Origin: an uncultured Lentisphaeria bacterium
GTDB lineage: Bacteria; Verrucomicrobiota; Lentisphaeria; Victivallales; Victivallaceae
Assembly: GCA_903821255.1 (NCBI GenBank)
Contig: CAIJKT010000826.1
Coordinates: forward strand, 1-8,881
Direction of reading: 5' to 3'
Length of the DNA: 8,881 bases
Of the stretch, positions 1-8,881 are shown one piece after another (within the stretch, counting starts at the first letter, position 1; each line of letters starts with the position of its first letter). The notes below the pieces were generated by a model. It saw nothing but the letters and a program-made list of their open reading frames with translations. It did not search any database and was not told where the DNA came from. A program made the position numbers and the translations under genes.

Positions 1-44
1 ATCATCGGCGTGTCCCGGTCCACATTCACAAACTTCGCTCCCAT
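1..44 (-). CDS. Transposase, N-terminal fragment (IS1182/IS4-like), cut by window edge
   Basis: Only the first 14 codons lie in the window. The ATG at 44-42 is preceded by AAGGA with a 6-base gap, so the start is well supported. The peptide reads MGAKFVNVDRDTPM. From memory, the V-x-V/N-R/D-D-x-P pattern is the usual opening of IS1182-group DDE transposases, where it is followed by a L-L-P-P segment that would lie outside this window. The gene reads in the same direction as the polysaccharide genes and starts 45 bases beyond the stop codon of the truncated methyltransferase reading frame. The family call rests on a short N-terminal match, so the exact IS group is uncertain. Confidence 0.7.
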   Translation of the reverse strand, partial: MGAKFVNVDRDTPM

Positions 45-125
45 CGTAAATCCTTTTTGATCGTAATATATCACTACACAATTTTCATGCTATATGGCCT
101 TTGAAAAAAAAGTCCGACAGGCTGC
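1..125 (-). mobile_element. End of an insertion sequence inserted in a methyltransferase gene
   Basis: Seen: the FkbM reading frame at 899-90 loses all family resemblance after about base 130. Within a further 90 bases a new gene with transposase-like N-terminus begins. The stretch between, about 125-45 on the minus strand, contains CTGTCGGAC followed by eight T residues, then AT-rich DNA leading to the transposase ribosome-binding site. That is what the left end of an insertion sequence looks like: terminal repeat, short leader, transposase. The exact boundary is an estimate in the 112-130 range. The other end is outside the window, so neither the terminal inverted repeat nor a target-site duplication can be verified here. 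Confidence 0.65.
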
Positions 126-899
126 TAGAGAAACAAATGATCGTTTTTCCGTCCGACCAGAAACACCCGCCTGGATCACTTCAATGTTCGTCAAGTCATT
201 TCGCCTGCAATTGGCTTCAAGTGTACTTCTGGACTTTGCGTCCGGCTCAAAACAGAAGACGCGTCCGCCCGGTCCCACATCGATGGCGGCGGCAATGCCG
301 AATAGCCCATGGTAAGAGCCAAGATCAAAGACAATTCCATCGCGGGGCGGCGGGCCAACTCGGTAATAGTAGTTTGAAAGCAGATCGCTCCAAAAGAATA
401 CCTCTTCCAAACTTTCCTCTGCCCATTTTGGACTAACCTCGTATTCAAGCCATACGCCCCGGTAGTTCACGCGTGCCAGTTCTCCTTCCAGGGTGACTCC
501 AGCAATCGAGTGAACGTTATGTGTTTCGTCGAGTTCCAGCGAATTCCAGTGCTTAATGATTCCACCCAAATAGTCAATTAAAGTGGAGACAGGCGGAAGC
601 GCAACCACTTTAGATTCAGATTGCAGAAGTAATCGTGACGCTCCTTGTTCCGCAATAATACGGAAACGTCCAGCCGCCATCAGCGCAGCGCATTTTTCCA
701 GGGAAGGGAGATACTGTTTTATCTGTAATGGCGTAATTGCCACACTGCCAATTTGCATTGACTGTACCGTCTCGCCTGGTCCGTAATGCACGTTCACCCC
801 GCATTGCCGCAGTTGTTTCAAACAGATGTTTCGATAAATCTGTCTTGACACGCGATTATGGACAGCGCGACTTAGCAAAGCCTGAAATTTCGATTTCAT
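90..899 (-). pseudogene. FkbM-family SAM-dependent methyltransferase, truncated by an insertion sequence
   Basis: The frame gives 269 residues. The start chosen is the ATG at 899-897: it overlaps the upstream glycosyltransferase stop as ATGA and has AAGGAGG 9 bases before it. A GTG at 923 in the same frame has no such support. Residues 1-185 are a family-specific N-terminal region that I do not recognise. The SAM-binding core begins at 189, with motif I VFDLGSYHG (190-198) and the acidic post-I motif FCFEPD (215-220). The family resemblance runs through VIQAGVSGRTEKRSF (241-255) and then stops. The last dozen residues (to FFSKAI) appear to be encoded by insertion-sequence end DNA. FkbM domains normally continue for roughly another 90-100 residues, including a D-V/I-E/Q-G-x-E motif that the second, intact copy at 5648-4893 still has. 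The protein therefore lacks half of its catalytic fold and is probably inactive. Its original role would have been O-methylation of a glycan. Confidence 0.8.
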
Positions 900-2047
900 T
901 GCGCTGTGCCTCCTTGGTAACACACTTTCTCCAGGGAAGCAATTAATTTACGTGCCGCAACCGGCAACGCGAATTCAGCCTCATATTTATTGCGGCTTTC
1001 GATGGCCATGTGATACAACAGGCCAGGCCGGGCGGCCAGTTGGTACAGCAACTGAGCATACTCGTCAACGTCATCTATTCGCCGCGTTACAAATCCGGTT
1101 TGTCCATGCTCGATCATCTCTGGAATTGCCCCTGCCGGAGAGCCGATTACCGGAAGTCCGAAGGCATAGGCTTCAGAGATCACATGCGGACTGAAATCTG
1201 CCCGTGACGGCAGGAATAGAACGTCTGAACTGAGAAAAGTCTGTGAGATTTTTGCATATTCTTCGGGAACGCCTTTCTGCATCGGCGGCAGGATTTCCAA
1301 CCATGATTCATTCTGCAATTCCGCTGGCGCCTTCATCCCCAGTGTAGTCAGGCGGACATCCAGCCCCATCCCCCGTACTTTGTGCACGGCCTCCAGAGCG
1401 ATGTCGGCTCCCTTGCGCAGCCAATCGTTGCCGACGATGAGACACCTAAGCGTTTTTTGTGCGCCGGAACGTACGGCCAACACCTCGTCCCTGGACGGCA
1501 CCCCGGGAAGAATCGCCGGCGCTTGGACAACCCCCAGCCGCGATTCAGTTGCGTGATAGCATCTGATGGCTCTTGCGGCAGCCCAGGATGACATAAGGAT
1601 AGTAAGAGCCGACCGGTGCAAAGCGCGACTTTCGGCGCGGTGGCCTGCGCGCAAACTTAAGAAGTCAAGATGGGTATGTGAGGGATAGAAGTCCACAATG
1701 CAATCAAAAACCGCATCGACATAGTTTACCACTGGCAAAGGAGTGTTTAGCCAGGCGGTGAAATGTGTACTTCGTGAAAATATGATGTCGGCCTCTGTTC
1801 CGCTGAGTGCTTTCCCGATTGAATAAGCCAAACCGCGCAACCGGGACACATCACACGCCGTGGACACATTATATCCCATTCGGCGGAACAGGGCTGAGCG
1901 CCAGCGCTCAATCCTGGCGGCTGGCGGCGGAGTCGGCTCTATGACCGTCACTTTCACGCCCAAAGCTTCAAAGGCGCCAATGAGGGCCGTATCACGGTCG
2001 AAAGCCCCGGCACCAACCCGGTCTGATGATAGAAATGCTATATGCAT
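896..2047 (-). CDS. Glycosyltransferase family 4-like protein (GT-B fold)
   Basis: 383 residues, ATG start, a typical length for GT4 enzymes that transfer a sugar from a nucleotide-sugar to a growing lipid-linked glycan at the cytoplasmic face. The N-terminal Rossmann half opens with MHIAFLSSDRVGAGAFD. The C-terminal half begins near residue 200 (CLIVGNDWLRKGADIALEA at 202-220, with the family K-G pair at 212-213). The donor-binding segment is DFSPHVISEAYAFGLPV at 284-300, followed by GAIPEMIEHGQTGFV. The usual E-x7-E pair is present as D284-x7-E292, a conservative change at the first position. It starts 18 bases after the stop of the preceding glycosyltransferase with only a weak purine-rich ribosome site (AGAGAGAC). 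Its stop overlaps the next start, so translation of the three genes is probably coupled. The sugar specificity cannot be read from the sequence. Confidence 0.9.
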   Translation of the reverse strand: MHIAFLSSDRVGAGAFDRDTALIGAFEALGVKVTVIEPTPPPAARIERWRSALFRRMGYNVSTACDVSRLRGLAYSIGKALSGTEADIIFSRSTHFTAWLNTPLPVVNYVDAVFDCIVDFYPSHTHLDFLSLRAGHRAESRALHRSALTILMSSWAAARAIRCYHATESRLGVVQAPAILPGVPSRDEVLAVRSGAQKTLRCLIVGNDWLRKGADIALEAVHKVRGMGLDVRLTTLGMKAPAELQNESWLEILPPMQKGVPEEYAKISQTFLSSDVLFLPSRADFSPHVISEAYAFGLPVIGSPAGAIPEMIEHGQTGFVTRRIDDVDEYAQLLYQLAARPGLLYHMAIESRNKYEAEFALPVAARKLIASLEKVCYQGGTAQ

Positions 2048-2065
2048 TGAAAGTCTCTCTTTCTG

Positions 2066-3292
2066 TTATTCTGTTCCAAAAATCGCTGCCAGTGTGGCAA
2101 AAACCGTCTTTTCGTCCGCACGGCGTGAAAAATCCAAGGCATTGTCCCTGAATTGCGCGGGGCTTTTCCGCAATTTGTCAAATTGACTGCGGAGATGCTT
2201 CAAGTCCAGATGCCGATAGGTTAATCCAATGCCATAATGGCGTACTGCGGCCGCCATATAGCCGATATCCGGCACGAGTACTGGACAACCGTAGGATGCA
2301 GCCTGGAAGAGGCTGCCGCTTAATCCGTACCAATGCCGGTAAGGCAGTATGATATATCGGGCTGAGCGAAAAAGATCATCGACCAGGGCGTTTTCCGGCA
2401 GGAATGGGATGCTCAATTCAAATATCCGGTTTTGCTCTGCCAGTTGTTGTCTAACCGAATTTGTTGTTTTCGAGAATGTTTCTTCCGGAACATCGCGCCC
2501 CACATCAACAAAGACGGTATCCTCGTACTCCAATGCCAAAGCGAGCAAGGTGTCGTAACCGCGCCGCACGAAGCGGCCTCCGTAGTAAAGCAACACGTCT
2601 TTTCCGGAATGGCATTCCAGAAATTCTGCATACCCCAGTCGAGCCTGGCCGATCTCAGGCGGTTCATGCCCAATGTCCGTCCCCCCCGTCCGGTAGATCT
2701 CCGGGAGATAACGAATTTGAGGATGGGACAGCGCAGCAACAGCATTTTCATCAGTGGAAAGAATTAAATCCAATCCCAGCTTCGACCATGCCTCCCGCCT
2801 GAAGAAGCGCCGCCGCCGGTATTTTTCCCTGAGATGTCGTGCCCATGGACGAAGCTTATCCCAGAAAGCGTACTTTCGCAAATCCAGCGGATATTCATGC
2901 GGGAAATAGATGAAAATGGCGGATCTCCGGCGTTGATTAGATTCCTGCAGCCATTCTCCCTGGAGCGCACTGACACATTCCTCCCCGTTTACCAGCAGAG
3001 TCCATGTGGGATTAAGGTCGGTTTCCAACTGGGTAAGCCGCATCCTGAACCGTGCCGGGGCATGGACGACATCGGCCTCCAGATCGAAGGCGCGCGCGTC
3101 CGAATCTGCCAGGAACTGAGCCAGAACCGGAGACCGGGATGCCGGGATGCCATGCTCGCCGGGGCCGCAAGCGATGACGACCGGATGACCTGTACCGGCA
3201 AACCAGCGGCCAAGAACAGCAACATAATTCTTCCGGTGGCCGTCCGAATCCGATGCCACAATTAATACAGGTCTTTGAATGGATGCATTCAT
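2066..3292 (-). CDS. Glycosyltransferase, divergent GT-B/GT4-like
   Basis: 408 residues, ATG start without a clear Shine-Dalgarno. The N-terminus has a first beta strand and glycine/histidine turn (VLIVASDSDGHRKNYV, 9-24) like GT-B enzymes that begin with a G-H-x-x-x-Y pattern. A basic stretch (REKYRRRRFFRREAW, 155-169) could contact membrane lipid phosphate. The C-terminal half starts around 232 (DVLLYYGGRFVRRGYDTLL) and carries the late GT4 signature YGLSGSLFQAASYGCPVLV (322-340), in which S-G-S-L replaces the usual acidic first position of the E-x7-E motif, so the donor site is atypical. It is followed by 18 bases and then the second glycosyltransferase, which argues for one operon. The role is inferred as addition of one sugar in the repeat unit. 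The family call is less secure than for its neighbour. Confidence 0.75.
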   Translation of the reverse strand: MNASIQRPVLIVASDSDGHRKNYVAVLGRWFAGTGHPVVIACGPGEHGIPASRSPVLAQFLADSDARAFDLEADVVHAPARFRMRLTQLETDLNPTWTLLVNGEECVSALQGEWLQESNQRRRSAIFIYFPHEYPLDLRKYAFWDKLRPWARHLREKYRRRRFFRREAWSKLGLDLILSTDENAVAALSHPQIRYLPEIYRTGGTDIGHEPPEIGQARLGYAEFLECHSGKDVLLYYGGRFVRRGYDTLLALALEYEDTVFVDVGRDVPEETFSKTTNSVRQQLAEQNRIFELSIPFLPENALVDDLFRSARYIILPYRHWYGLSGSLFQAASYGCPVLVPDIGYMAAAVRHYGIGLTYRHLDLKHLRSQFDKLRKSPAQFRDNALDFSRRADEKTVFATLAAIFGTE

Positions 3293-3518
3293 GCCACAGT
3301 CTGCTTTGGAATATCTTTGTTTTAATTTTCTACGTTTTCAACGTTAATAAAATGTCTGGAGTTACACATAAATTCTGAATGCCAATATGGATTCATGTTT
3401 CCCGCTGACTTTTAATCTTCGGCATTTTCTTCTAAAATTCCTTCTTGAAACCTGACAGTTTATTATGGATAAAATTGCGGGAGCAGCAGTTCACCGCTGA
3501 CACATGTCACCCGATTCC
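3293..3518 (-). other. Intergenic spacer, 226 bases, no confident gene
   Basis: AT-rich spacer between the membrane protein stop and the next glycosyltransferase start. It holds only very short frames on the minus strand, the longest noted being 24 codons beginning MNPYWHSEF, none with family resemblance. A small dyad TGACA-TG-TGTCA at about 3499-3510 lies just after the upstream stop but lacks a T-run, so I do not call it a terminator. The spacer is large enough to hold a promoter for the glycosyltransferase genes, but I could not find a convincing pair of hexamers. Confidence 0.5.
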
Positions 3519-4826
3519 TTACGGGGATGCCGGCAAAGCCCGGCTCTGACACTTGTCATACAAACGGCAGATTTCGGAGAAGAACAGTACTGTAAAGAAC
3601 ACTTCCGGCGGATGCAGGCTGTAGCCGACGATCCAGACGTAAACGAAGTAGATGGACCAAGCCGTCAGCATACTCCTGAACAATTTTTGCTCAGCGCTCA
3701 GCTGCATCAGCCAGCATTTTAAAAGTCGCCAGAATGCCGTAAAAAACAGTGCAGAGAACAGTATCACGCCAGGTATTCCATACCAAAGCCAGACATTTAG
3801 TATCACCGCAGTGTCAACTGAACCCTGGCAGTTTGCCAAGGGGTCCGGACCCGGCGCACCAAAGAAACACAGGTTTTGCAACAGATAAGTCTGTACATTG
3901 GCCATGTTATCCAGTCGATTCCAGACATTTTCATCGTCCAGGCCCAATGACAAAAACCTCATTTGAAACTCTTCTATCAAGACCACGAAATCAATATGGC
4001 AGACGGCAAATCCCAGGAGGCACGCGCCCGTGATTCCGATGGCGAACTTGCGTGTGCGGTTAAACTTTCCGCTCATCGATAGCCACGCAACCAGCATGAC
4101 AAGCGTTCCCATGCTCAGTACCAGAATCATGCTTCGGGTTACACTGATTCCCACCGCGATTAAAATAGTTCCAACTCCGGCATACATTGCCAGATTCCAC
4201 AGCCAATGATGTCTGGTTTGGACAAGAGCGCCTCGCAGTACATACCAGTAGGCCGACGGAATCACCGTAAACAGCCCCATTACGATAAAACGGTTCTTGA
4301 CGATCCACGCAGTGTCACCAAGCGTTAAGTCGCTCATTGCATCGCCACTGTCGGGGATGCCCCAAATAGCCATCTGCATCAGATATTCATTGCCGGTCAG
4401 ATAGACCATGGTTCCCCAAACTCCGACGACGATTCCAGCCATGCACATCCACAAGCGCAGGCTGGCCATCTCATCATCGCTGAGCCGGTTGAACGCCACC
4501 AATAGCGGACCCCACAGAAACGCAAGGCTAAGAAGCTGGACACACTGGCCCGGCCCGAAACCGAATTCCTGTTTCAATTCACACTGCCGCAACAGCACAA
4601 TCAGCGAGAGTGTCAGCGCGCAGATTTCAAGCCCGCGCAGGCGGCTGCGATGACTGAACAGCAACTTGATGGTGGCCAGGATGAGTATGGCAGAGGCTAA
4701 TTGAGGATGCACAAGCTTTCCTGCTAAATTGAACAGCGGCGTTTGCAGGAACATGAACAACGCATAACCCAGTACAGGACGAAGCCAGGCGACAGTTCCC
4801 AAGAGAAACAATAACAAGAAACTCAT
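3519..4826 (-). CDS. O-antigen ligase/polymerase-like polytopic membrane protein
   Basis: 435 residues. The ATG start has GGAG 8 bases upstream. The protein is strongly hydrophobic, with about 10-12 membrane segments by eye, the first at residues 1-28. A large polar loop follows the ninth or so segment (roughly IEEFQMRFLSLGLDDENVW to the LANCQGSVD region). It is followed by a hydrophobic segment with an aromatic-Tyr-Gly-Ile-Pro-Gly turn (NVWLWYGIPGVILFSALFF). The pattern of many membrane helices, one big periplasmic loop with an R-x-D-N stretch, then a Y-G-x-x-G turn is typical of the Wzy_C/WaaL superfamily, which either polymerises repeat units or joins finished glycan to an acceptor. Because the locus has an ABC exporter, which normally handles fully polymerised chains, a ligase role is somewhat more likely than a polymerase role. 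That is inference: sequence alone does not separate the two. Confidence 0.8.
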   Translation of the reverse strand: MSFLLLFLLGTVAWLRPVLGYALFMFLQTPLFNLAGKLVHPQLASAILILATIKLLFSHRSRLRGLEICALTLSLIVLLRQCELKQEFGFGPGQCVQLLSLAFLWGPLLVAFNRLSDDEMASLRLWMCMAGIVVGVWGTMVYLTGNEYLMQMAIWGIPDSGDAMSDLTLGDTAWIVKNRFIVMGLFTVIPSAYWYVLRGALVQTRHHWLWNLAMYAGVGTILIAVGISVTRSMILVLSMGTLVMLVAWLSMSGKFNRTRKFAIGITGACLLGFAVCHIDFVVLIEEFQMRFLSLGLDDENVWNRLDNMANVQTYLLQNLCFFGAPGPDPLANCQGSVDTAVILNVWLWYGIPGVILFSALFFTAFWRLLKCWLMQLSAEQKLFRSMLTAWSIYFVYVWIVGYSLHPPEVFFTVLFFSEICRLYDKCQSRALPASP

Positions 4827-4892
4827 TAATTAGACTCCAAAACTAGCGGAAGCAATAAGCTGAAGCTGAAAACATGATCGCATAAATCTGTT

Positions 4893-5648
4893 TTAAATGT
4901 TTCCAATTCCACGGCGGAAGATAACATCGCTCTGGATCACTTCCCCACTCCTGTCGGGACTGAACATCTGCTCAAGAATGCCGGCATATTCAAATCCAAA
5001 ACTGTGCATCTTTTCATACAACACATGAAACGTCGGGGAACCTGTATAAAGTGGCCGCATTGAGACTTCCACCACTACGGTATCAACTGCGGAAAACGCT
5101 TTCTTGCCCCCGTTGATGGCCATAATTTCCCCGCCCTGGACATCCATTTTCACAAATACACGTTCATTGCGTCCCACCTCGAACAACGAATCAAGGCAGC
5201 GAGTTTGTACTTTAATACATTGGTCCGTGCCTGATCCGGGCCATAATTCCCGGTGGTTCTGACTCATTGGCAGGAGTGACGATGAGTCTGCATAGTCAGC
5301 ACCTCCGAGATGAAAGTCCATCAATCCATCCTGATCACTCAGGGCGCATTGATGGCGCTCAATATTGGGTTGTTCACTGGTTCTGCGAGTTAGCTCCGCA
5401 AAATTTTCCGGGAGCGGTTCGAACGCAAGGATTCTTGCATTGGGAAAAAGCCGGCGAAACAAAAGCGCATGGGTGCCGCGTGCTGCCCCTATGTCCAAAA
5501 CAACGTTGAAGTTCCTGGCTATCAGCCATGGCAGATTATAAGTATATAAATCATGGGGAGATATTCCTGCCTTGCGCAATTGGCGCTCGCGAAGAAGTTT
5601 CCTGGGATGAGTCAGTTTACTGGCAGTACTATAAATCTTGTTGAGCAT
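4893..5648 (-). CDS. FkbM-family SAM-dependent methyltransferase, intact
   Basis: 251 residues, a normal length for the family. ATG start with AAGG about 10 bases upstream. SAM-binding motif I is LDIGAARGTHA (51-61), the post-I acidic residue is in FEPLPENF (77-84), and the later motif VFVKMDVQGGEIMAING (165-180) plus VVVEVSMRPL (191-200) complete the methyltransferase fold. No signal peptide or membrane segment, so it should act in the cytoplasm. FkbM enzymes O-methylate sugars or other hydroxyls. In a polysaccharide locus the expected substrate is a sugar of the repeat unit or the non-reducing chain end. It lies 267 bases downstream of the ABC ATPase and 66 bases upstream of the ligase-like gene. 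The motifs lost from the broken paralogue at 899-90 are all present here. The exact acceptor cannot be read. Confidence 0.9.
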   Translation of the reverse strand: MLNKIYSTASKLTHPRKLLRERQLRKAGISPHDLYTYNLPWLIARNFNVVLDIGAARGTHALLFRRLFPNARILAFEPLPENFAELTRRTSEQPNIERHQCALSDQDGLMDFHLGGADYADSSSLLPMSQNHRELWPGSGTDQCIKVQTRCLDSLFEVGRNERVFVKMDVQGGEIMAINGGKKAFSAVDTVVVEVSMRPLYTGSPTFHVLYEKMHSFGFEYAGILEQMFSPDRSGEVIQSDVIFRRGIGNI

Positions 5649-5915
5649 TTCTGGAGAACCTTTCCATAAAAGTTGAATGTTAAAAAATATCTTGTCGTCA
5701 TGAATCTTCTATTGTTTGATCATATCATAATCAAGCCATTTAATGTCGGAACCTCCGCACATCTCATTCCCCTGATTTATTGCGATATCCCGGGTAGATT
5801 AAATTCATGCCGGATATTCATTTAGAGAATCCATACCTTGCTTCAGCACAATTTGCATGCTCTCCTTTAAGATGTGCCGCTGTCACTCATGCGCTTGCCG
5901 CGTTGATTTTTGTTG
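5649..5915 (-). other. Intergenic spacer, 267 bases, mini-ORFs only
   Basis: No gene is supported here. The minus strand carries a 17-codon frame (ATG at 5858, stop at 5805, MQIVLKQGMDSLNEYPA) with AAAGGAG only 3 bases before the ATG. Its stop overlaps a 14-codon frame (MNLIYPGYRNKSGE), and that stop overlaps a third short frame. None resembles a family I know. This could be a leader or the debris of a decayed gene. A weak promoter-like pair for the methyltransferase, TTGATT then 17 bases then TAGAAG, lies near 5735-5707. The spacer has no clear hairpin followed by a T-run, so read-through from the ATPase gene is plausible. Confidence 0.4.
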
Positions 5916-7172
5916 CTAAACTTTTATCCAGGACAATATAGGCCGTATGACTCCGGGTTGAGGAGTGCTGACTACCCAGAATTCATTATTGCCGTGGGCG
6001 ACATATACATTGAACTGTATCGAAGGCTGCGTATGCACGATCCATCGAGTACAGTGAAGGCTGATTCTTGGTGCGACAGAGTACTTGCCCTTGTTCAGCA
6101 GTCCCTGCGGGATTTTACAGGATAGGCGGTTTATCCCAAGCGAGAGCGCAGGCCACTCGGAAGCTACAGCATCATTATGATGGGATGTAAACACCACTGT
6201 TCCGTCTTGCCACAGTAATTCGAACCCCACGCGCAGAGCTGCATCAATACTGCGGACATCCAGCAGCATCTCCACAAAAACGTCTTTATCCGATGAGAAA
6301 TCGGAGCATACATCGCCTTCGCTATTCATCGTTTTTAAGGACAGAATCCGTACAGTGTCATCTCCCGGAGCGGTTGCCAACGGCCAATTTTTTTCACCTG
6401 TGCAGTTGTCATCACTACCCATATAAGAGGAAGTCACGTCTGCCGGGTCCCCGTTTGCCGTAACATTGCCGTCCTGTAACAGAACGCAGCGAGTGCATAG
6501 CAAGCGGATTGCCTGCATGTTATGGCTTACGAACAATACAGTGCGTCCAGTCTTGGCAACGTCACCCATCTTTCCCAGACATTTCTTCTGGAATTCCGCA
6601 TCACCCACTGCGAGAACCTCATCCACCACCAGGATTTCCGGTTCCAGGTGCGCCGCCACGGCGAACGCCAGGCGGACATACATGCCACTGGAATAGCGCT
6701 TTACCGGGGTGTCCAGGAATTTGTCAATCTCCGCGAAGGCGATAATTTCACAAAACTTCTTTCTAATCTCGGCGCGGCTCATTCCCAAAATTGCGCCATT
6801 CAGAAAAATATTTTCACGTCCGGTCAATTCCGGGTGAAAACCGGTACCAACCTCCAAAAGGCTCGCCACTCTTCCACGCATGGTAATCTTACCTCTCGTG
6901 GGAGGAGTTATTTGCGATAATATTTTAAGCAGTGTACTTTTACCCGCGCCATTGCGGCCGATGATCCCGATCGCCTCGCCTTCCTGCACGTTAAAACTGA
7001 CATCTTTTAATGCCCAGAAGTCTGTTTCAGACGGTCTTCTATTTTTGATCCCCGGGCGGAGCCTGGAGGTAAATTTTACGATTTCATCACGCAGAGACAG
7101 ATATGGCTCCTTATTCGCGCCAATGCGATAACATTTACCGACGTTTTCTATTTCAATTATAGGTTTGGTCAA
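5916..7172 (-). CDS. wzt: ABC transporter ATP-binding protein, Wzt/TagH type with C-terminal glycan-binding domain
   Basis: 418 residues. It powers export of a lipid-linked polysaccharide across the inner membrane with the permease at 8293-7454. The nucleotide-binding domain covers about 1-250: Walker A GRNGAGKST (72-80), signature YSSGM (160-164), Walker B ILVVDE (180-185), and H-loop histidine 217 in VLFVSHN. The L-E-V-G-T-G-F-H-P-E-L-T-G-R-E-N stretch (106-121) is characteristic of the polysaccharide/teichoic-acid exporter subfamily. Residues 255-418 form a beta-rich domain (with VGFELLWQDGTVVF, 315-328) like the Wzt C-terminal domain that recognises the modified chain end. The start is a TTG at 7172. 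No ATG lies near, and AAGGA sits 9 bases upstream inside a heptanucleotide repeat. The spacer from the permease is 281 bases, whereas these two genes usually abut or overlap. Confidence 0.93.
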   Translation of the reverse strand: MTKPIIEIENVGKCYRIGANKEPYLSLRDEIVKFTSRLRPGIKNRRPSETDFWALKDVSFNVQEGEAIGIIGRNGAGKSTLLKILSQITPPTRGKITMRGRVASLLEVGTGFHPELTGRENIFLNGAILGMSRAEIRKKFCEIIAFAEIDKFLDTPVKRYSSGMYVRLAFAVAAHLEPEILVVDEVLAVGDAEFQKKCLGKMGDVAKTGRTVLFVSHNMQAIRLLCTRCVLLQDGNVTANGDPADVTSSYMGSDDNCTGEKNWPLATAPGDDTVRILSLKTMNSEGDVCSDFSSDKDVFVEMLLDVRSIDAALRVGFELLWQDGTVVFTSHHNDAVASEWPALSLGINRLSCKIPQGLLNKGKYSVAPRISLHCTRWIVHTQPSIQFNVYVAHGNNEFWVVSTPQPGVIRPILSWIKV

Positions 7173-7176
7173 TTTT

Positions 7177-7218
7177 CTTTGTCCTTTGTCCTTTGTCCTT
7201 TGTCACTTGTCACTTGTC
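7177..7218 (-). repeat. Heptanucleotide tandem repeat, six copies, carrying the wzt ribosome-binding site
   Basis: Read on the plus strand there are four perfect copies of CTTTGTC (7177-7204) followed by two copies of ACTTGTC (7205-7218). On the minus, transcribed strand this is (GACAAGT)2(GACAAAG)4. Each GACAAAG-GACAAAG junction makes the sequence AAGGAC, so AAGGA appears at 7186-7182, 7193-7189 and 7200-7196. The nearest lies 9 bases before the TTG start of the ABC ATPase. A further AAGGA at 7221-7217 sits at the edge of the array. Tandem 7-mers can change copy number by slippage. Confidence 0.95.
7182..7186 (-). promoter_or_regulatory. Ribosome-binding site (AAGGA) for the ABC ATPase, inside the heptamer array
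   Basis: AAGGA on the minus strand, 9 bases before the TTG start at 7172. It decides the start, since no ATG with a site is available. Two identical copies occur 7 and 14 bases further upstream as part of the tandem repeat. Confidence 0.7.
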
Positions 7219-7219
7219 C

Positions 7220-7360
7220 TTAATCGCGGGAAAAATCTCCAGATTTCGTGCAAGCATAAACTTTCCGAGCAAGCTCCCTGGCCATCTGCCATCCGTTAAT
7301 ATCTTCAAACCGCTCAATTTCATGTTTTTTTAATGTCCTTACTCCATTATCCTTAGTCAA
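7220..7360 (-). pseudogene. Four-helix-bundle protein (23S rRNA intervening-sequence protein / S23 family), truncated remnant
   Basis: A short frame ends with TAA at 7222-7220. From 7318 to 7262 it reads IERFEDINGWQMARELARK, then VYACTKSGDFSRD, then stop. This is the first helix of the small four-helix-bundle family related to proteins encoded in 23S rRNA intervening sequences and to the Avd accessory protein of diversity-generating retroelements. Members are usually about 115-130 residues and continue after this point with a R-D-Q-I-R-R-A-type helix. Here the stop and the heptamer array replace everything after about residue 33-36. No good start remains: upstream in frame there is only a TTG at 7360-7358, and the position where an initiator before K-K-H-E-I-E would be expected is TTA. 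About three quarters of the gene is missing, so I call it a remnant. The family match is from memory of its conserved N-terminus, not a search. Confidence 0.8.
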
Positions 7361-7431
7361 TCGTCAAACGCTGTTCGTGTTCATTCGCATTTTATTTAGT
7401 GCAAACCGACTAGCCGACTAAGGACGATGGA
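7343..7431. repeat. Imperfect inverted repeat, 16-base arms, 57-base loop
   Basis: The plus strand at 7416-7431 reads GACTAAGGACGATGGA. The minus strand from 7358 to 7343 reads GACTAAGGATAATGGA. Fourteen of 16 positions match. In minus-strand RNA one of the two differences is a G-U pair, so a long-range stem is possible. The arms sit between the permease stop and the four-helix-bundle remnant. Confidence 0.75.
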
Positions 7432-7449
7432 CGGTTTTTGACTAAGGAC
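7416..7449 (+). repeat. Direct repeat of GACTAAGGAC
   Basis: GACTAAGGAC occurs at 7416-7425 and again at 7440-7449, 24 bases apart start to start. The second copy ends 4 bases short of the permease stop codon. Both are in the opposite orientation to the AAGGAC units further along the spacer, so the motif family flips direction inside the spacer at about 7360-7415. Confidence 0.85.
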
Positions 7450-7453
7450 TTTA

Positions 7454-8293
7454 TTAAACTATGTCCGCAAAATATCTTTCAGTACTCCGGAAGTAATATA
7501 ATCCGGCAACAAAATAAACTATACTCATCAACAGAGAGATTCCGAGTACGCCGTAGTCAATTACGCCTTGTCCGAGCAGACCGGCACGGGCGGTGGAAAT
7601 AACCCCGGAGATCGGGTTCAACCAGAGCATAAGCTCTTTGATGACCGGATAGTTATTCAACATCTTGACCGGATAGATGACCGGCGTTACATACATCAGT
7701 ATCTGAATGAAGAACGGCAGCGCGAAACGGACGTCCCGGTATTTGATATTCAGCGATGCCAGCGCCATCCCCATCCCCAGCGAGCTGAGCACGGCAATCA
7801 GCAGTAAGACTGGTAGAATCAGTAATCCGATCAGTTGCGGCATTATCCCGTAATAAACCATCATGCCCATCAGGATCACAGTTGCAATCGCCAGATCAAC
7901 CAGTCCGGTAGTGGCGGCAGTCGCAGGCACGATGAGGCGGGGGAAATAGACCTTCTGGATCAGAGAAGAATTACTGATCATGGAGCCGCTGGCGTTGGTC
8001 AGTGTGCTGGAATAATATTGCCATAGCAGCAGTCCAACATAAAGAAAAACCGGATAGGGGGTGCTGTCCCCGCTGCTGATATTCGCCATACGGTTAAAAA
8101 TAAAGGTGAAGACGATCATTGTGACGAACGGCTGGAATATTGCCCAGGCGATTCCCAGCACGGTTTGTTTATAGCGCACAGAGATATCCCGCCAGGCGAG
8201 GACTAAAAAGAGGTCACGGTAGTGCCACAGTTCCTGCCAGTTAACGGCAAGCCATCTCTTCGACGGAGCGATGATAAATTCTGATTGCGACAA
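7454..8293 (-). CDS. wzm: ABC-2 type polysaccharide export permease, Wzm/TagG type
   Basis: 279 residues, a normal full length for the family. The start is TTG at 8293-8291 with a perfect AAGGAG 7 bases upstream, which makes this start firm despite the rare codon. The N-terminal amphipathic region (ELWHYRDLFLVLAWRDISVRYK) precedes six membrane segments beginning with LGIAWAIFQPFVTMIVFTFIF. The cytoplasmic coupling region includes the R-Y-K and I-K-Y-R-D-V-R-F sequences typical of these permeases, and the L-N-P motif (LWLNPISGVISTARAGLL) lies before the last segment. Two copies pair with two ATPase subunits to move a lipid-linked glycan across the inner membrane. Its partner ATPase lies 281 bases downstream, separated by repeat-rich DNA with a gene remnant. 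Confidence 0.93.
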   Translation of the reverse strand: MSQSEFIIAPSKRWLAVNWQELWHYRDLFLVLAWRDISVRYKQTVLGIAWAIFQPFVTMIVFTFIFNRMANISSGDSTPYPVFLYVGLLLWQYYSSTLTNASGSMISNSSLIQKVYFPRLIVPATAATTGLVDLAIATVILMGMMVYYGIMPQLIGLLILPVLLLIAVLSSLGMGMALASLNIKYRDVRFALPFFIQILMYVTPVIYPVKMLNNYPVIKELMLWLNPISGVISTARAGLLGQGVIDYGVLGISLLMSIVYFVAGLYYFRSTERYFADIV

Positions 8294-8300
8294 TATTAAT

Positions 8301-8306
8301 CTCCTT
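8301..8306 (-). promoter_or_regulatory. Ribosome-binding site (AAGGAG) fixing a TTG start
   Basis: AAGGAG on the minus strand, 7 bases before the TTG start of the permease. The consensus match and ideal spacing make the non-ATG start credible. Confidence 0.8.
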
Positions 8307-8346
8307 GATTGATGTGCAATTTATCTATAAATAAGAAAGGTTTAAG

Positions 8347-8366
8347 AAATTATCTTATGATAATTT
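8347..8366 (-). promoter_or_regulatory. AT-rich perfect hairpin in the permease leader
   Basis: AAATTATC (8347-8354) and GATAATTT (8359-8366) are perfect inverted arms of 8 bases around a 4-base loop, about 55 bases before the permease start. It is followed on the minus strand by CTTAAACC, not a T-run, so it is at best a weak terminator. It might be an operator or an RNA-processing or stability hairpin. Function is not known. Confidence 0.4.
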
Positions 8367-8399
8367 TATTCTAACCACTACTAGCAGATCACATTGCAA

Positions 8400-8414
8400 G
8401 ATCGCAAAGCGATC
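8400..8414 (-). promoter_or_regulatory. Short GC-containing hairpin at the end of the upstream gene
   Basis: GATCGC-AAA-GCGATC on the plus strand, with perfect 6-base arms and a 3-base loop, overlaps the stop codon of the upstream partial gene. No T-run follows on the minus strand, so it is not a canonical intrinsic terminator, though it could slow or protect the transcript end. Confidence 0.4.
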
Positions 8415-8881
8415 ATTCGACTGATACAACTTTCACATTATCAATAATGACATTTCCGGAAAAAAACAGAACCAGTCTGAAATTTTCACAATTTTTAAGG
8501 CTGAATGTTATTGTATATTTTCTTTTCATATTGCTAAGTTCAAATTCTCTTAAGTTGATTACTTCGGAAAAATGAACTTTTTTAATATAAGTATATGCGG
8601 ACAGCATTAAACATCCTCTGCTCCCGGAATTAGCTTGAACTGCTATCAGATAATTTCTATTGGCGTCAAACGTACAATTTGAATATAGCGAAATTATGTC
8701 CTTGCTTTTGACATTTAACGCATTGGTATTTCCCGCTGTAAGTTTGATAGACTCCGGGCTGCAGCTTGCATTCCAGCTATGGCTCGTATTTATAATCCAG
8801 TCATCGGGGATATCAACTTCTCCATTTTCGAATAAATTGATTCCACGGCCCAGTAAAATTTTAGTCGCGTCACAAAATGGA
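8413..8881 (-). CDS. Protein with C-terminal jelly-roll (carbohydrate-binding-like) domain, partial, open at the window edge
   Basis: The frame is open from the right edge of the window (no stop from 8880 down) to TGA at 8415-8413, giving at least 156 C-terminal residues. An internal ATG at 8607 is not a credible start, since the frame and its domain continue upstream. The visible part resembles the C-terminal beta-sandwich of CBM4/9-type modules: GINLFENGEVDIPDDW near the start, then alternating strands, and a final FSGNVIIDNVKVVSVE, matching the usual closing strand in which an I-D-N-V-x-V sequence ends the module. Such domains sit at the end of glycoside hydrolases and other secreted glycan-active proteins. 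The catalytic part, if any, is outside the window. The DNA is much more AT-rich than the other genes (16 G or C of 60 in 8521-8580), which suggests a separate origin. It ends 119 bases before the permease start. Confidence 0.6.
   Translation of the reverse strand, partial: PFCDATKILLGRGINLFENGEVDIPDDWIINTSHSWNASCSPESIKLTAGNTNALNVKSKDIISLYSNCTFDANRNYLIAVQANSGSRGCLMLSAYTYIKKVHFSEVINLREFELSNMKRKYTITFSLKNCENFRLVLFFSGNVIIDNVKVVSVE

Follow-up and report, generated by a model that had tools for sequence, protein, structure and literature searches.

A probable remnant of a one-gene element with inverted heptamer arrays between wzm and wzt of an uncultured Lentisphaeria bacterium

Intervening sequences (IVS) of 23S ribosomal RNA (rRNA) are among the closest known relatives of the locus considered here, a spacer between the genes wzm and wzt in a window of 8,881 nt (the whole stretch of DNA analyzed; assembly GCA_903821255.1, contig CAIJKT010000826.1, positions 1 to 8,881, from an uncultured Lentisphaeria bacterium). 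In the published account, the Coxiella IVS is a 428-nt segment with inverted ends and an S23p open reading frame (ORF), preceded by the tandem heptamers GACAGAT/GACAGAA and excised by RNase III, for whose protein there is evidence that it is probably not made in vivo (PMC4990558). Its authors cite an earlier proposal of IVS mobility (Ralph and McClelland 1993), report that a Xanthomonas relative is a homopentamer, and describe the role of S23/IVP proteins as unknown (PMC4990558). We estimate at roughly 85% the probability that the Lentisphaeria spacer preserves what decay has left of a small mobile element, one consisting of one gene between inverted arrays of ~7-nt units, the gene being predicted to encode a four-helix protein of the TIGR02436/PF05635 family, a relative of S23/IVP and of Avd.

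The 23S rRNA IVS of Coxiella, Leptospira, and Brucella resemble the class represented in the window by protein family, by a single ORF in ~430 nt and by inverted ends. However, they lie inside 23S rRNA and are cut from RNA, whereas the window locus is not in a 23S rRNA gene and has the protein-coding genes wzm and wzt as neighbors, and the arms of the elements studied here bear no sign of RNA-level pairing. The Coxiella IVS looks like a special case of a wider class of elements. Avd, the accessory protein of diversity-generating retroelements, is likewise a four-helix bundle, and its model NF033474 recognizes 16 of the 25 family members in the alignment at E ≤ 0.01 (all 25 match TIGR02436 at that threshold). 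On the other hand, no reverse transcriptase match was found among the seven ORFs of the window and the spacer peptide, template repeats not having been searched for, and the family occurs in Nostocales genomes lacking such a match: a reverse transcriptase was matched in 55 of 60 of these genomes, and four of the remaining five still carry the family. A resident reverse transcriptase was rejected as a requirement on this count and seems not to be needed. In REPIN/RAYT systems, short inverted repeats are dispersed between genes and linked to a single-gene partner. The likeness lies in both of these traits; the difference is that the REPIN partner belongs to another family and that the repeats here are tandem 7-nt arrays that vary within one genome.

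Intergenic tandem 7-nt units like those of the window are also known as simple sequence repeats (SSRs). The available text on Xanthomonas and Nostoc describes heptameric repeats, often as inverted pairs in Xanthomonas, that are generally not associated with mobile elements (PMC4692102), and intergenic TAACTGA arrays are described for Beggiatoaceae in the part available of a second article (PMC4679880). The accessible text of neither contains a mention of S23, helix bundle or four helix, and no passage turned up by a search that left most subscription journals aside ties four-helix genes outside rRNA to arrays of heptamers.

The Spacer Fragment and Its Closest Relatives

The spacer measures 281 nt, and its minus strand holds the remnant of a four-helix-bundle ORF (7223..7330), limited to the first helix and little more, whose 36 codons read KKHEIERFEDINGWQMARELARKVYACTKSGDFSRD before a stop at 7220-7222. 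The right arm (7177..7221, minus strand) is a 7-nt array with the minus-strand units AAGGACA and AGTGACA (Tandem Repeats Finder score 62, period 7, 6.4 copies). On the wzm side, an outer left arm (7406..7453, minus strand), aligned to the left arm of the closest relative, contains the imperfect units TCCTTAGTC, GTCCATC, GTCCTTA, and GTCGG, and inner left units of opposite sense (7336..7366, minus strand) read GACTAAGGA and GTAAGGA and belong to the inverted pairs I1, I3, and I4. Related short units flank the fragment on both sides, the wzm side included, and several of them are mutually inverted.

According to the initial annotation, the minus strand encodes the start of a four-helix-bundle protein, its first helix, and then has a stop and a heptamer array. 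This description was borne out by the array at 7177-7221 and by a profile of 92 family members built without the copy of the closest relative: segment 7223-7363 (minus strand) headed the list of 258 six-frame segments with E = 7e-4, the runner-up reaching E 0.096. The match covers only positions 1-26 of the 105 in the profile, short of the ~105-residue four-helix core, and the peptide scores 13.9 bits on PF05635 against a cut-off of 33.8 (E 0.064). The fragment is counted as a remnant and not as a member gene of PF05635/TIGR02436. As such it fits a four-helix ORF between inverted ~7-nt arrays in three respects, namely the right array, the inverted units and the orthology to L001, the closest wzm relative.

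L001 is one of 45 loci retrieved by a wzm scan of genome contigs and comes from a genome bin labeled Lentisphaeria; its wzm is 87% identical to that of the window, and the two spacers are 88% identical across 273 aligned nt. The four-helix gene in L001 is near full length (98.5 bits on PF05635) with one in-frame stop, and the element (L063 in the arm test) has arms of its own that score 15 in inverted orientation. The window is shorter than L001 by ~280 nt, which comprise the rest of the gene, starting near codon 36 of the fragment and ending in the right array, with the deletion point at 7218..7226 (minus strand). This orthology is the strongest evidence that the fragment is real, and it sustains the proposal of the initial annotation that the spacer is the scar of a cassette with most of its gene deleted. 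Since the L001 gene too has an in-frame stop, this lineage is decaying; loss in the window through recombination between short repeats is plausible.

Seven closest wzm relatives were compared. The annotated view that a spacer is normally absent here holds for four of them (L002, L005, L006, and L007), in which the gap between wzm and wzt is just 7-14 nt, but not for the other three, which hold a four-helix gene: between wzm and wzt in L001 and L004, and behind wzm in L003, where no wzt was detected downstream. All three provide the fuller, repeat-flanked gene expected of a cassette, the window's own repeat units being present in L001 only. The cassette had further been placed between wzm and wzt; it is indeed inserted there, but such insertions are not peculiar to this junction, as PF05635 was matched in 11 of the 15 genomes of wzm relatives (113 matches in total, fragments included), with up to 31 matches in one genome (G004, followed by G003 with 29). 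In these two WOR-3 genomes, each of the four wzm-like matches is followed by a four-helix match at a distance of 53-264 nt; a Wzt-like next gene was found for two of them (L099 and L105) and not for the others (L100 and L089), and G003 encodes two four-helix proteins 94% alike, each behind a different wzm gene. Because the genomes were chosen by wzm, this association is only a lead on target preference and does not measure a rate. Viral contigs yielded no wzm relative.

Anatomy and Insertion Sites of Four-Helix Elements

The wider survey covered the wzm relatives plus one cyanobacterial order, the Nostocales, in which the family was found in 43 of 60 genomes; 14 named control genomes had no PF05635 match, and a family protein query gave no match in phages. 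The loci studied comprise 70 from the genomes of wzm relatives (the first set) and 29 from Nostocales. In the first set, a lag of 7 was the best of ten self-match lags for 42/69 left and 47/70 right flanks. Under a strict period-7 threshold (0.70 over 35 nt), 20/69 left and 22/70 right flanks passed, that is, 31/70 loci in at least one flank, compared with 5.6% of 233 gene-distant control windows, of which at most 0.4% passed at other lags. The repeat unit varies by element; in some the period is 8 or 9, and in others no array is apparent. The arms are related as inverted repeats: a reverse-complement score of at least 14 was obtained for 51/68 first-set elements against 15/68 in direct sense, and for only 8/248 combinations in which arms were swapped between elements, within the same genome where another element existed. 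The corresponding figures for Nostocales are 24/27 for own inverted arms and 18/108 for arms swapped between genomes. Inverted arms were found at none of 30 PIN-gene control loci from first-set genomes, where the period-7 threshold was passed by three left flanks and one right flank. Over both sets, 80/99 elements have an arm score of at least 15, indicative of terminal inverted repeats, and the mean arm length is 47 nt. Three plasmid elements of 418-503 bp have the four-helix gene as their sole annotated ORF and no transposase of their own.

Gene and arrays also recur together. Flank sequence (score of at least 18) is held in common by 6/7 same-genome pairs of proteins at least 70% identical, by 2/7 pairs of 55-70% identity and by 1/323 pairs below 55%. 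In G004, L069 and L079 are alike across 402 bp with both limits inside arrays, while their upstream flanks do not match; in addition, the flank that follows L079 matches, over 104 bp, sequence ~260 bp further along in L069. The two elements seem to break into related genes for restriction-modification, each at a different position. In both, the right array has an ATG and the left array overlapping stop and start codons, so that the interrupted gene might continue to be translated piecewise.

Full and empty forms of the same site were found in genomes and plasmids alike. Two elements of G005 are absent from G006, with which it shares aligned blocks ~75-94% identical, and one junction holds different elements in the two genomes (L057 and L062) with no nucleotide match across them. 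L164 has five empty counterparts, spread over four related genomes, and L169 (~770 bp) is absent from G088 and G089, in which the flanking sequences, 92-94% identical, abut directly; no clean empty site was found in these two genomes for L284, the second element of G035, and L161 had no second genome of its genus for comparison. A family protein query matched 43 plasmid records, and the clearest cases come from cyanobacterial plasmids. There, site 1 is occupied in plasmids of Trichormus variabilis (ATCC 29413) and Scytonema and empty in four plasmids 97-98% identical, the 428-bp insertion being bordered by an exact 5-bp duplication, GTAAT. Sites 2-7 provide further pairs with and without the element; TTCTA stands on both sides at site 5, but only if a 1-nt gap is allowed, site 6 has a 3-bp duplication, L169 has none, and the left-hand gene of site 7 differs between the two forms. 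Sites 1, 5, and 7 hold a common gene family (pairwise proportion of nonsynonymous differences, pN, 0.09-0.13) and similar arrays at unrelated targets, and these arrays are absent from the empty forms. Comparison places such elements at many unrelated sites in genomes and plasmids of several groups of bacteria, inserted between genes and mostly in the sense of their neighbors. Stages of decay are visible as well: at site 1, the Nostoc C052 plasmid (L301) has lost all but the first helix (E = 1.8e-6) and the left array, a ruin of the same kind as in the window at a site with known full and empty forms, and L303 at site 2 has the arrays without the gene.

As a separate observation, in the Nostoc plasmids L311 and L315-L319, two of which come from one strain, four-helix elements occupy two neighboring junctions of one operon across plasmids, which suggests a favored insertion region.

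DNA Ends, Transcript or Passenger

Under the preferred reading of the spacer as the relic of a mobile element, the arrays would be the ends of that element, recognized as DNA; the element would be expressed through read-through; its protein, a pentamer in a solved relative, would act on the ends with a recombination or replication enzyme of the host or resident in the cell; and a staggered cut would place copies in new gaps. Loss of the gene would leave the arrays alone, a stage that the window has almost reached. The solved relatives 2gsc and 2rld have five chains each. In the 88 of 99 loci that could be scored with a crude ORF call, both neighbors lie in the sense of the four-helix gene in 51, are mixed in 30 (+- in 19, -+ in 11) and are both opposed in 7; given this strong bias, the gene is probably expressed by read-through from its neighbors. 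Purines make up a mean of 0.66 of the left arm on the sense strand (more than 0.6 in 55/80 elements and less than 0.4 in 4), an enrichment that may in part serve ribosome binding. The ratio of nonsynonymous to synonymous substitution rates (dN/dS) is 0.03-0.22 in 14 of 15 chosen pairs, one being not computable and several having saturating dS, and the protein is thus under purifying selection.

The bias toward the neighbors' sense would also be expected if the element acted at the RNA level, its arms pairing in the transcript so that RNase III excises the four-helix ORF from the operon messenger RNA and selection maintains the stem. The Coxiella IVS offers a precedent: besides its heptamers, it has a terminal stem of 28 bp and is processed by RNase III (PMC4990558). 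Arm mismatches of the 80 scored elements nevertheless number 138 G-U, 171 A-C, and 427 others (p = 0.07, in the direction opposite to that expected of paired RNA); this absence of a lean toward G-U favors inverted DNA ends over transcript pairing. The clean DNA insertions in plasmid operons also speak against an RNA-level element, which we consider unlikely.

A second possibility is that the arrays are ordinary intergenic SSRs and that the gene is a passenger, spreading by array recombination or capture and contributing nothing itself to movement. Several observations weigh against a mobile element defined by its arrays, and some are what a passenger would predict. Arrays of 7-nt units occur without the gene, including in genomes without the family: a 20-kb stretch of G005 holds 25 arrays, only partly beside four-helix genes, and Nostocales without the family have 7.3 arrays per 100 kb against 13.0 in those with it (p = 0.07). 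Pairs of arrays within 1.5 kb are more often direct than inverted (35 and 10, respectively, in 821 kb scanned), a pair of small genes in G005 read as antitoxin and PIN-type toxin sits between direct arrays, and two relatives have arrays without the gene at the L172 site. Furthermore, 39/70 loci stay below the strict period-7 threshold in both flanks, 19/99 elements fall below the arm score or lack enough flank, and the shared flank of L085 and L088 continues into the neighboring gene, as in some paralogue pairs. A target duplication is exact and 5 bp long at just one of four scored junctions, full and empty forms of sites 3 and 4 have some different host bases at the junction, the protein lacks a clearly basic character (median isoelectric point 7.8), and transposition itself was never observed. 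Against the passenger stand the inverted arms, typical of four-helix genes and found at 0/30 PIN genes, the delivery by one gene family of like arrays to the unrelated sites 1, 5, and 7, array-free when empty, and the purifying selection on the protein. On balance, a passenger gene is an improbable account. Since gene-less arrays exist, arrays alone are no proof of an element, and it is the inverted pair around the gene that serves as its mark.

That the 36 open codons of the window, conserved segment included, form an independent short functional gene is very improbable, for the L001 spacer has a long gene (with one stop) of which the window lacks ~280 nt, the one other short form of this kind (L301) occurs at a site with full copies, as deletions predict, and the peptide gave a family hit with no independent conserved 33-residue gene in evidence.

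For the class as a whole, we tentatively propose, as a possibility short of an even chance, that such loci are widespread minimal elements of ~420-770 bp whose protein would drive or direct movement by reading the varied 7-nt arrays as DNA, that rRNA IVS would be members that landed in rRNA, and that many unexplained arrays would be scars. The window is a minor relic, and its interest lies in the class behind it. S23/IVP proteins occur in many genomes and are annotated by fold only; a common anatomy together with clean insertion in plasmids makes of their role a testable question about a minimal mobile element without a recognizable transposase, and may link rRNA intervening sequences with the heptamer arrays of cyanobacteria and other bacteria, both so far unexplained.

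Arrays Apart From the Gene and Other Features of the Window

Several other accounts of the arrays were tried and set aside. The four-helix family as the cause of all arrays finds just the weak trend in array density among Nostocales given above. The array unit found at L169 is similar to the target 7-mer, which suggested that arrays are copied from the target; as a general rule this was rejected, given the similar arrays at the unrelated plasmid sites 1, 5, and 7. Concerted rewriting of both arms, considered for the site compared in G071, G086, and G087, was not supported by the arm scores (own 27 and crossed 32 in G086; own 12 and crossed 33 in G087). The gene-less arrays at the L172 site are compatible with gene loss and with an insertion into an array. 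Each of these three genomes has 106-125 matches to the arms of L172, a number in which one array may count repeatedly; this type of 7-nt array is thus broadly dispersed.

Arrays also accompany other sequences. The G005 pair of small genes (G005:C54 80082-80997, in L116) is bracketed by CACCTTT arrays in direct orientation, each with the same additional flank, and recurs, 94% identical, in G006 (63035-63777) with no arrays alongside. The right array of L164 recurs across G061:C1, often as direct pairs 1182-1183 bp apart (for example, 5427476 and 5428659, or 4561209 and 4562391), which would fit the ends of a different mobile element that bear or target that array.

An Rfam scan of the window gave no family at the gathering threshold. 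ORF calls and a Pfam profile search describe the window as a minus-strand gene cluster that includes glycan genes, among them an FkbM methyltransferase and a glycosyltransferase, each accompanied by a second match of its kind below the cut-off (just below it in the case of FkbM). Upstream of the spacer lies the wzm-like permease of the ABC-2 type (7454..8293, minus strand; PF01061, E 3e-16), and downstream the wzt-like ATP-binding cassette (ABC) ATPase (5916..7172, minus strand; PF00005, E 9.8e-23), in which Wzt_C stays below the cut-off. Further upstream of wzm, an ORF at 8413-8880 is open and runs past the end of the window.
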